This document shows positions 6,925-56,770 of a stretch of DNA of 64,000 nucleotides, in pieces. This stretch comes from an uncultured Prevotellaceae bacterium (GTDB lineage: Bacteria; Bacteroidota; Bacteroidia; Bacteroidales; Bacteroidaceae): NCBI GenBank assembly GCA_946185285.1, contig CAMHIS010000002.1, forward strand, positions 1 to 64,000, given 5' to 3'. A program made the translations under genes and the position numbers. Numbering within the stretch: the first letter of the stretch is position 1; each line of letters opens with the position of its first letter. The notes beneath the pieces were generated by a model that saw only the letters and a program-made list of their open reading frames with translations, was not told the DNA's origin and made no database searches.

Positions 6925-7220
6925 TGTTTCAACCACACGGTTTTAATCCGTCAATCCGTCACCTTCGTCCTATCTGTCCCATGCTGAGCGTGTTACGTGG
7001 TGACGGATGATGGTGACGGGTGACGGATGGCTATATGCTCCGACGGCTGTAATGAGTCACGTGCGGAGAATCATCGTTCACCGCACGTGAACAATTGGCA
7101 CTGAGGCTTGGCGTATGGGAATGCGCAATGCATCCGTCACCCGCCACCACCATCCGTCATCACGTATCCGATTGATTGTCTGTTAATTACGTGGTTGTGA
7201 CGGCTGTGACGGAATTTTTA
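6925..7220. repeat. Dispersed palindromic intergenic element, copy 1 (shortened)
   Basis: This stretch matches the two 358-bp elements at 41020-41377 and 56413-56770 over its whole length. It lacks their first ~35 and last ~50 bases. It contains the GTGACGGATGATGGTGACGG arm and its inverted counterpart near 7130-7170, plus a decayed hairpin core (…TTCACCGCACGTGAA…). It begins right after the transglycosylase stop codon. No reading frame is conserved between copies. Confidence 0.85.
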
Positions 7221-41019: not shown

Positions 41020-41377
41020 AAATCGGTCATTAGAAGTCTTTGGCACGGAAAAACACTGTTCAACACGGTTTTTATCCGTCAATCCGTCATCTTAGCCCTA
41101 TCTACCACATACTGAGCATGTTACGTGGTGACGGATGATGGTGACGGGTGACGGATGGCTATATGCTCCGACGGCTGTAATGATTCACGGGCGGTGAACG
41201 ATGATTCACCGCACGTGAACATTTGGCACTTTGGCTTGGCGCACGGGAATGCGCCGTGCATCCGTCATCCGCCACCATCATCCGTCATCACGTATCCGCT
41301 TGATTGTCTGTTGTTTGCGTGGATGTGACGGATGTGACGGATTTAGAATTCTCTTATTTGTGAAATTGACGGCAGAT
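41020..41377. repeat. Dispersed palindromic intergenic element, copy 2
   Basis: A 358-bp element between convergent genes. It starts AATCGGTCATTAGA and ends ATTGACGGCAGAT, the same ends as copy 3. It has nested inverted repeats: outer arms rich in ATCCGTC/GACGGAT, inner arms (TTACGTGGTGACGGATGATG and its complement) and a 15-bp hairpin core at 41184-41219. The six-base loop of the core reads CGATGA, the complement of TCATCG in copy 3, so the core looks inverted. No conserved ORF. Confidence 0.88.
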
Positions 41378-54157: not shown

Positions 54158-56281
54158 ATGTACAAACCACTGTTCAACAAGCGCCGCGTGCTCGTGTTCC
54201 ATCAGTTCGGGAACAAGGGTTGGTCGCTCTTCAGCTGCTTAGGCCGCGAGGTGGTCTGCTCCGTCCTCTCCGTGTCGACGCTCACTTATGCGTCGGCCGA
54301 GAGTGTCAGCACCCATCCCGTCGTCACCGACTCAGCGGCTGTCAGCACCCCACGCGAGCTGCTGCTCGACGAGGTGAGCGTCACCGGAAGCCGAGCACCC
54401 CTGACGCGTAGTCAGGCTGCGAGAATGGTCACTGTACTGGAGCGTGCCGACATTCAGCAGGCCCCGGTGCAAAGTATTAACGATTTGCTGAAACTGGCCG
54501 TAGGCGTCGATGTCCGCCAGCGCAGTCCCATTGGCGCGCAGACCGACATCTCAGTCCGAGGCGGCACACAGGAGCAAATCATCGTCCTGCTCAACGGCAT
54601 CAATATCTGCGACCCGCAGACCGGCCACAACACCCTCGACCTGCCCTGCGACTTCAGCGACATCCAGCGCATCGAGGTTCTCGAAGGCCCAGCCGCCCGC
54701 ATCTACGGCACATCGTCACTCGTCGGCGCCATCAATATTGTGACAAAAGATGACCCCTCCCCTGCCTCCCCTGAAGGGGAGGAGCTATTGCTCCTGCGCG
54801 CCGAGGGCGGCTCCCACGGTTACGCCAACGCCGCAGCACGGATACTGCTCCCTCCCTATAGGGAGGGCCGGGTTGGGTCTTCCCTTTCCGCCTCCTACGC
54901 CCGCTCCGACGGCTACAGCCGCAGCAAGGCAGGCTCGCTGAACAGCGACTACAGCGGCGCGAAAGCCTTCTACCAAGGCCACTACGCCGCCAACGCCCTC
55001 AGCCTGAACTGGCACTTCGGCATAGCCGATAAGGGCTGGGGCTCCAGCACCGCCTACGCCTCGCCCAAGTGGCAGGCCGACGACCAGTACGAGCACACCA
55101 CCAAGCTCACCGCCGCCCTCCAAGCCAATGTCCAGTCTGGTGCAGTATCACTGCACCCCACCGTCTACTGGAACCAGCACCAAGACCGCTACGAGGGCTA
55201 CCGCAACCGCCCCGACCTCATGCCCTACAACTACAACCGCACCGACGTCTTCGGCCTCCAGCTCAACAGCCACTTCGACTGGTCGTTAGGCCGCACGGCT
55301 CTCGGTGCCGAGCTGCGCAATGAGAACCTCGTCAGCGGAAACCTCGGCGAGCCGCTCACCCGCCCCCACGCCATCTACGGCACCGACCGCGACTACACTC
55401 TCGGCCTGAACCGCACCAACATCAGCGCCTATGCCGAGCACAACGTGCTGCTCCAGAACCTCACCGTCTCGGCAGGCTTTGTCGTGGTAAAGAATACATG
55501 GGCCGACATGAATCCCACCATCTACCCGGGCATCGACGCCAGCCTGCGGCTCGGCAGCCACTGGAAGCTGCACGCCTCATACAACACATCGCTGCGTATG
55601 CCCTCGTTCACCGAGATGTACTACAAGCTGCAAGGCTACAAGGCCGACCCTCACCTAAAGCCCGAGGAGATGCGGGCCCTGGAGCTGGGCGCCAATTGTC
55701 AATTCTCAATTCTCAATTGTCAATTGTCTCTTTGGCACCACCACGGCCGCAACATGATTGACTGGATCATGGACACCCGCCAGGGCGACGAGGCCGCATG
55801 GCAGAGCGTCAACCACACCCGCCTGAACAGCATTGGACTGGAAACGTCGGCCCAACTCTCAATTCTCAATTCTCAATTGTCAATTAGCTACAGCTACATC
55901 CATCAGGAGAAGGACCTGGAGCCCGGCATCGTCTCGCAGTACGCCTTAGAGTACCTACGCCATAAACTGGTAGCCAACATCCACATCCCCCTGCTCCGCC
56001 AGTACGCTGTGCTGCGGCGGTGCCGCAGCCAAATCCCCTCCCGTCTCACCCTTGATGCAACCCTCCGCTACCAGGACCGCGCCGGACAGTACACCGACTT
56101 TGACGGGAGCGTCAACGACTACCGCCCTTACGCCCTCGTCGATGCCCGCCTGTCATGGCAACAGCGCGCCTACGAGCTATACCTGAAGGCCAACAACCTG
56201 CTGAACACCAGCTACCGCGACTACGGACTGGTGCCACAACCTGGCCGCTGGATCATCGCAGGGCTAAGCATCTACATATAA
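54158..56281 (+). CDS. TonB-dependent outer-membrane receptor (BtuB/FepA-like)
   Basis: A 707-aa receptor that imports a bound ligand across the outer membrane using TonB energy. The plug domain has LDEVSVTGSRAPLTRSQAAR, INDLLKLAVGVDVRQRSP, DISVRGGTQEQIIVLLNG and IERIEVLEGPA-like IQRIEVLEGPAARIYG. The barrel ends LYLKANNLLNTSYRDYGLVP…GLSIYI with the terminal aromatic strand. The ligand is unknown. The coding sequence contains five short repeat insertions in frame (see repeats), including two heptamer arrays. The divergent MG2-type gene may be its partner. The N-terminal segment MYKPLFNKRRVLVFHQFGNK is unusually long ahead of the signal-like region. Confidence 0.9.
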   Translation: MYKPLFNKRRVLVFHQFGNKGWSLFSCLGREVVCSVLSVSTLTYASAESVSTHPVVTDSAAVSTPRELLLDEVSVTGSRAPLTRSQAARMVTVLERADIQQAPVQSINDLLKLAVGVDVRQRSPIGAQTDISVRGGTQEQIIVLLNGINICDPQTGHNTLDLPCDFSDIQRIEVLEGPAARIYGTSSLVGAINIVTKDDPSPASPEGEELLLLRAEGGSHGYANAAARILLPPYREGRVGSSLSASYARSDGYSRSKAGSLNSDYSGAKAFYQGHYAANALSLNWHFGIADKGWGSSTAYASPKWQADDQYEHTTKLTAALQANVQSGAVSLHPTVYWNQHQDRYEGYRNRPDLMPYNYNRTDVFGLQLNSHFDWSLGRTALGAELRNENLVSGNLGEPLTRPHAIYGTDRDYTLGLNRTNISAYAEHNVLLQNLTVSAGFVVVKNTWADMNPTIYPGIDASLRLGSHWKLHASYNTSLRMPSFTEMYYKLQGYKADPHLKPEEMRALELGANCQFSILNCQLSLWHHHGRNMIDWIMDTRQGDEAAWQSVNHTRLNSIGLETSAQLSILNSQLSISYSYIHQEKDLEPGIVSQYALEYLRHKLVANIHIPLLRQYAVLRRCRSQIPSRLTLDATLRYQDRAGQYTDFDGSVNDYRPYALVDARLSWQQRAYELYLKANNLLNTSYRDYGLVPQPGRWIIAGLSIYI
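54750..54787. repeat. GC-rich palindromic insert in the TonB receptor gene
   Basis: CCTCCCCTGAAGGGGAGG (54765-54782, 7-bp arms, TGAA loop) preceded by ACCCCTCCCCTG. It encodes the acidic/Pro stretch DDPSPASPEGEE right after the plug (INIVTK), where family members usually continue directly. It resembles intergenic palindromes common in Bacteroidetes. Confidence 0.7.
54850..54867. repeat. Perfect 18-bp palindrome in the TonB receptor gene
   Basis: CCCTCCCTATAGGGAGGG is its own complement and is followed by CCGGGTTGGGTCTTCC. It encodes PPYREG in an early barrel loop. The style is that of an intergenic palindromic repeat placed in a coding region. Confidence 0.75.
55693..55727. repeat. Heptamer array (CAATTNT, five units) in the TonB receptor gene
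   Basis: Units CAATTGT, CAATTCT, CAATTCT, CAATTGT, CAATTGT. They encode NCQFSILNCQLS, which by chance has the alternating pattern of a beta strand. A change of one unit (7 bases) would shift the frame. Confidence 0.88.
55853..55887. repeat. Second heptamer array (CAATTNT-type, five units) in the TonB receptor gene
   Basis: Units CAACTCT, CAATTCT, CAATTCT, CAATTGT, CAATTAG, encoding AQLSILNSQLSI. It is read in the same frame phase as the first array 160 bases upstream, so both give similar peptides. Confidence 0.88.
56006..56030. repeat. 25-nt palindromic repeat inside the TonB receptor gene
   Basis: Same unit as at 34452-34476 in nudC, one mismatch, core CTGCGGCGGTGCCGCAG. Here it encodes AVLRRCRS; in nudC it encodes GCTAAVPQ, so the reading frames differ. 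Confidence 0.85.
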
Positions 56282-56412: not shown

Positions 56413-56770
56413 CCAATCGGTCATTAGACGTCTTTGCACCGGAAAAAACTGTTCAACACGTTTTTTATCCGTCAATCCGTCACCTTCGTCCTATCTACCA
56501 CATGCTGAGCGTGTTACGTGGTGACGGATGATGGTGACGGGTGACGGATGACTATATGCTCCGACGGCTGTAATGATTCACGTGCGGTGAATCATCGTTC
56601 ACCGCACGTGAACAATTGGCACAGAGGCTTGGCGTACGGGAATGCGCCGTGCATCCGTCATCCGTCACCATCATCTGTCATCACGTATCCGCTTGATTGT
56701 CTGTTGTTTGCGTGGCTGTGACGGATGTGACGGATTTAAAACTCTCTTTTTTGTGAGATTGACGGCAGAT
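56413..56770. repeat. Dispersed palindromic intergenic element, copy 3
   Basis: A 358-bp element between the convergent TonB receptor and DUF3078 genes. Inner arms are at about 56515-56550 and 56652-56687 (nearly complementary over 36 bases). Outer arms lie near 56465-56482 and 56718-56737. The core TTCACGTGCGGTGAA / TTCACCGCACGTGAA (56577-56591, 56598-56612) is a perfect 15-bp inverted repeat with loop TCATCG. No conserved ORF; the best preserved of the three copies. Confidence 0.88.

Follow-up and report, generated by a model that had tools for sequence, protein, structure and literature searches.

Short repeats are probably written into working genes again and again in the Prevotella group, since in relatives the matching turns of this protein hold repeats typical of the respective species. 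The window, i.e., the whole stretch of 64,000 nucleotides of a rumen Prevotella that was analysed, contains a gene for a BtuB-like TonB-dependent receptor with five such repeats, S1 to S5, all of which are in frame. The best explanation, which we regard as probable, is that genomic repeats have invaded tolerant turns in a near-neutral manner. Genomes would keep a pool of short repeats, consisting of species-specific 7-nt tandem arrays and small palindromes, and copies from this pool would be written repeatedly into protein genes. The survivors would be the frame-keeping copies at places where the protein tolerates change, which in the BtuB-like barrel may be the plug-barrel linker and the periplasmic turns.

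Five In-Frame Repeats in a BtuB-Like Receptor Gene

The receptor gene has 707 codons without a stop. Its structure was taken from an AlphaFold model (44-sequence alignment, mean pLDDT 76, pTM 0.78), and the best solved-structure match of this model was E. coli BtuB (2gsk, E 1e-31, TMt 0.85). The predicted plug and 22-strand barrel, with BtuB as the top structural match, place the product in the BtuB-family fold. The receptor therefore resembles BtuB, the cobalamin TonB-dependent transporter, in fold and topology. However, it scored 124.1 bits against the TIGR01779 cut-off of 599.7 and 103.6 bits against the NF007926 cut-off of 836, and no Rfam match to a cobalamin riboswitch was obtained at the gathering score anywhere in the window. 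Because the sequence lies far under these curated B12-receptor thresholds, its name, given on sequence and predicted fold, is limited to "BtuB-like". A pseudogene was ruled out, because no stop interrupts the frame and the positions that do not vary in the alignment are retained. The named relatives belong to Prevotella and Xylanibacter, mostly from the rumen. The features of the gene are as follows:

54158..56281, + strand: BtuB-like TonB-dependent receptor gene, 707 aa, predicted plug and 22-strand barrel, Pfam plug and barrel above cut-off
54752..54784, + strand: S1, GC palindromic element in the predicted plug-barrel linker (aa ~199-209)
54785..54847, + strand: native gene between the inverted pair S1/S2, 63 nt, strands 1-2, conserved in repeat-bearing and repeat-free orthologues
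54848..54879, + strand: S2, GC palindromic element in the first predicted periplasmic turn (aa ~231-241), inverted partner of S1
55693..55728, + strand: S3, (TCAATTN)n heptamer array of 5.1 units, predicted strand-turn-strand (turn aa 516-518)
55853..55885, + strand: S4, (TCAATTN)n heptamer array of 4.7 units, predicted strand-turn-strand (turn aa 570-571)
56003..56044, + strand: S5, 42-nt in-frame insertion (14 aa) with the palindrome TGTGCTGCGGCGGTGCCGCAGCC, predicted periplasmic turn (aa 614-629)

S1 contains the palindrome CCTCCCCTGAAGGGGAGG (54765-54782). The palindrome of S2, CTCCCTATAGGGAGGGCCGGG (54852-54872), had 0 matches in 100 shuffles of the window, and that of S5, GCTGCGGCGGTGCCGCAGC (56011-56029), is expected 0.02 times by chance. 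The initial annotation had reported several repeats of an intergenic type inside this one open coding sequence, which agrees with our results, as all five keep the frame. It had also described the five as insertions; this is true of S5, an added segment of 42 nt, but not of S3 and S4, in which turn-flanking codons were replaced and the length is unchanged. The comparison with homologues that it proposed, looking for the same peptides encoded by unrelated DNA, revealed other peptides from other repeats in the relatives, and other repeats are also present there at the S1 site. A conserved peptide with incidental DNA repeats was ruled out, because the peptides vary among species.

Position of the Repeats on the Barrel

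The orthologue set comprised 95 CDSs (30 loci from an initial search, to which 65 were added). A tandem-period scan of these orthologues detected 47 period-7 arrays and a single period-8 array, and periods 4, 5, 6, 9, 10, 11, and 13 gave none. All but one of the period-7 arrays (46/47) are in frame, and the remaining one is located upstream of the start codon. The in-frame arrays map to query residues 196-211, 228-245, 278-284, 323-334, 512-524, and 565-577, and on the model they occupy the plug-barrel linker (197-210) and five periplasmic turns (235-238, 279-280, 328-329, 516-518, and 570-571). None of the 46 falls in the eleven extracellular loops of the AlphaFold model of the query. Similarly, S1 to S5 are all predicted to face the periplasm, either in the linker or in periplasmic turns. 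The first strand following the plug begins in the periplasm in the standard topology of TonB receptors, and the periplasmic side was assigned on this basis. Besides the N-terminus, pLDDT values below 50 were found at 200-206 (S1) and 617-625 (S5), and S3 and S4 appear as strand-turn-strand in the model.

The DNA identity of the S1 to S4 sites is 0.54-0.60 among similar pairs, showing that these sites evolve fast even without arrays. The orthologues carry 46 arrays in ~200 kb, compared with 17 in ~1.03 Mb of CDS sampled, which is ~14 times the average number per kb of CDS. The BtuB-like gene is clearly an array hotspot.

Repeats in Other Genes

Genomes were surveyed by sampled stretches and pattern searches, and array rates were calculated from unbiased stretches, leaving out L051-L080, which had been fetched by repeat pattern. 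The query genome contained 26 period-7 arrays in 464 kb, far more than chance would give, compared with 0-4 for periods 4, 5, 8, 10, 11, and 13. In the unbiased samples (1.13 Mb, three genomes) there were 77 period-7 arrays, 17 deep in ORFs and 60 outside or near the edge; in G091, the majority of the CTCGYAC arrays are located within genes. In-frame arrays were also observed in CDSs for M16 and U32 peptidases, MetH, TatD, RsmF, a RecD-like helicase, a PD40 protein, a metallo-beta-lactamase-fold protein, a PAD-like protein, a chorismate-binding enzyme, and others, and the U32-peptidase orthologues of G091 and G080 (L214, L223) carry arrays at a matching position. The array-bearing ORF of L216, which lacks a Pfam match and is possibly spurious, was excluded from the gene count. 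Thus the repeats, which had been called unusual within a single gene, do form a hotspot in the receptor, but they are not specific to it, since cytoplasmic enzymes bear in-frame arrays as well.

Two further observations concern repeats of these genomes. A 564-aa membrane-transporter-like ORF without a Pfam match (L226:258-1952) contains at least 4 CTCGYAC arrays in both orientations. The window holds three copies of a MITE-like element of ~260-310 bp (6930-7190, 41060-41360, and 56450-56760), one of them directly downstream of the receptor gene; its ends resemble ATCCGTCAATCCGTCAC / GTGACGGATGTGACGGAT, and it has a 15-bp palindrome inside.

S5 belongs to a family of which the query genome contains 58 copies when up to 3 mismatches are allowed, compared with 0 for the control pattern. 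The palindrome has no stop in any of the six frames, its conserved core is ~23-31 nt, and the family is located mostly within ORFs, where all three frames are used. Of the 36 unique copies that the fetched loci contained, 26 lie in sense orientation within ORFs, including 15 in phase 0 (VGCAAAVPQP), 10 in phase 1 (LCCGGAAA), and 1 in phase 2, which is the copy in the receptor gene. The phase 1 copies are chiefly found in N-terminal signal-peptide-like segments. LCCGGAAA N-termini of this kind occur near position 1501 in nine loci (L150, L156-L158, L161, L167, L169, L174, L175), and several LCCGGAAA loci are ORFs of 517-526 aa, putatively SusD-like in appearance. In addition, at least 5 tandem 42-nt units with the S5 palindrome are located within a 557-aa ORF (L146:1417-1607).

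Species-Specific Units and Recent Turnover

The units at the same site vary by species, including TCAATTN, TCAATGN, TCACTCN, TCATTTC, AGGAGTC, CTCGTAC, and others. Sisters in the tree have unlike units (L093 and L097; L012 and L143), and the distant species L083 and L126 have a unit in common. Searches for CTCGYAC x3 gave 21 matches in G091 and 128 in G080, both of which have this unit in the receptor gene, 2 in G022, and 0 in 11 further congeners. AGGAGWC x3 had 8 matches in G031, 36 in G245, and 18 in G291, exactly the genomes with this unit in the receptor gene, and 0 in 11 other genomes, and AATTNTC x3 had 56 matches in the query genome compared with 1 for the control. The array units follow the genome and not the gene, each genome having its own "dialect", and these genome-wide counts point to the source of the in-gene units. 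The relatives are mostly metagenome assemblies; the isolates Prevotella sp. P6B1 (S3 array) and P. ruminicola KHT3 (S4 array) appear to be array-bearing according to the contig and position match. An element, GCTCGGCYTTGCCGCTTGGCTYGTCCAAGAAT, was observed nested in or abutting heptamer arrays in L096 (site S3) and L005 (site S1).

Units have also been replaced between close relatives. L271 (89% identical) has S1 to S4 in common with the query. In L272 (86.5%) S4 is present, and the S3 site is ordinary sequence of equal length that is wholly different from that of the query and L271. S3 and S4 share an exact 26-mer, which has no third exact copy in the query genome (two copies being a lower bound, as this genome is ~71% complete) and 36 other matches there with one or two mismatches. 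As the S3 site of L272 is array-free and no exact copy of the 26-mer was found outside S3 and S4, the probable origin of S3 is a copy of S4, which is 160 bp distant and is read in another phase. The copying would postdate the split from L272, a dating that is carried by few close pairs, because the linker and turns evolve fast without arrays too. The S5 site holds the 42-nt palindrome insert in the query, another palindrome insert in L271, and a heptamer insert in L272, and it is empty in L081. S5 was absent from L081 and from 29/29 orthologues of the first comparisons, and inspection of filled and empty relatives revealed no clear target duplication.

S1 resembles the reverse complement of S2 within species far more than between species (z = 14); the corresponding value for the direct orientation is z = -0.3. 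A score of at least 12 for this inverted similarity was reached in 11 species. The inverted pair is also found in L271, L107, and L084, and one unit recurs at several sites within a single receptor gene. As the enclosed DNA is native, S1 and S2 did not arrive together in a single piece. An inverted pair of this kind would result from template switching on a folded strand. The purine-rich member comes first, as in inverted pairs of G080 and G091 that are 14-82 nt apart. Inverted heptamer pairs, purine-rich then pyrimidine-rich and 14-82 nt apart, were seen in L213, L214, L220, and L231, and intergenic pairs in the same order in L223, L224, L229, and L230. Several of the stretches enclosed by inverted heptamer pairs start with ATAGTT and end with GTAA.

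Reading Frame and Origin of the Repeats

Because 7 = 1 mod 3, a stop-free 7-nt array yields an identical heptapeptide cycle whichever of the three frames is read, e.g., Q-L-S-I-L-N-S, so a heptamer array in its stop-free orientation can land in any frame. The 7-nt arrays are unusually easily accommodated in genes. Frame computation showed that TCAATTN arrays are open on one strand only and CTCGYAC arrays on both, and the strand choice of the arrays in genes follows from this openness.

The initial annotation suggested that the repeats may have diversified the receptor surface. On an adaptive reading of this kind, they would be retained for the variation that they bring to loops recognised by phages, antibodies, or ligands. 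The fast turnover and the high array density in the receptor gene would suit such selection. However, S1 to S5 and 46/46 in-frame orthologue arrays are periplasmic on the model, the extracellular loops are free of arrays although they are longer in total, and arrays of an identical kind are present in cytoplasmic enzymes. Surface diversification is thus ruled out by the topology on the model, and we consider it extremely improbable. A function at the RNA level, in which the S1/S2 pair would persist because it forms an mRNA hairpin with a stabilising or regulatory effect on the transcript, is very improbable too. The complementarity of S1 and S2 is maintained despite sequence change, but the pair is missing from most of the 95 orthologues, unrelated repeats occupy S1 and S2 in several relatives (L106, L276), and S3 to S5 have no such pairing.

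Purely local replication slippage would let arrays grow in place from chance 7-nt duplications, with nothing copied in. It is consistent with the genome-wide dominance of period 7, with the degenerate array edges, and with heptanucleotide repeats being the commonest long class in many prokaryotes, as cited from Mrazek 2007 in PMC4679880. As the sole process it is refuted by the match of the array units to the genome's own dialect, and the recurrence of one unit at several sites of one gene and the 26-mer found exactly only at S3 and S4 also argue against it, which makes it unlikely; slippage may contribute to length tuning and unit homogenisation. Small elements with defined ends driven by a transposase (MITE-, REP/REPIN-, or RPE-like), with the inverted arrays as termini, are a possible but doubtful source. 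In their favour, the 42-nt insert S5 carries a palindrome that has many genomic copies, G080 and G091 commonly show inverted heptamer pairs that are purine-first and 14-82 nt apart, and MITE-like elements are present in the window. However, S3 and S4 replace sequence and add none, the DNA enclosed by S1/S2 is native gene, and no target duplication has been established.

Under the near-neutral invasion of tolerant turns, the copies may have been made by short-range template switching or ectopic gene conversion. More tentatively, and with less than even confidence, we propose that an active in-trans process in Prevotella spreads and homogenises the 7-nt dialect, rewriting arrays in core genes and intergenically, after which the frame-indifferent heptads would supply new turns, linkers, and signal-peptide cores. 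If so, heptad arrays would be a general source of such segments.

Our results describe how non-coding repeats can turn into protein sequence with the frame intact in many genes and species at once, with protein topology as the filter. As the repeats differ among species, recent events can be dated and tested. The results also give a warning that fast-changing receptor segments may reflect repeat turnover and not surface selection.

Comparison With Known Repeat Systems

In-frame selfish repeats are best known from Rickettsia. The Rickettsia palindromic elements (RPEs) are 105-146 bp in length and have terminal inverted repeats (Ogata et al. 2000, in PMC2229807). According to the account in PMC2229807, they are repeats of the genome that lie in frame in conserved protein genes and are apparently tolerated, similar to those of Prevotella, and S5 is likewise a multi-copy palindrome inserted in frame. 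However, the Prevotella units are ~30-nt palindromes and 7-nt arrays that differ among species and partly replace native codons; the S5 core of ~23-31 nt differs from RPEs in length and terminal repeats, and S3 and S4 are not palindromic.

The long repeats of TAACTGA and other heptanucleotides are almost all intergenic and have been ascribed to regulation (MacGregor 2015, PMC4679880), and the translated TAACTGA repeat is predicted to be beta-rich (PMC4679880). They share with our arrays a tandem period of exactly 7, several units, a species-patchy distribution, and openness on one strand (PMC4679880). In contrast to them, Prevotella arrays also occur in frame within conserved genes, at recurrent structural positions. 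In the mainly open-access literature that was searched, no mention was found of heptamer arrays lying in frame in Prevotella genes. The many small palindromic copies, often in inverted pairs, are also similar to REP/REPIN and MITE elements (PMC3733652, PMC2229807). The Prevotella repeats differ from these in that coding placement is common.
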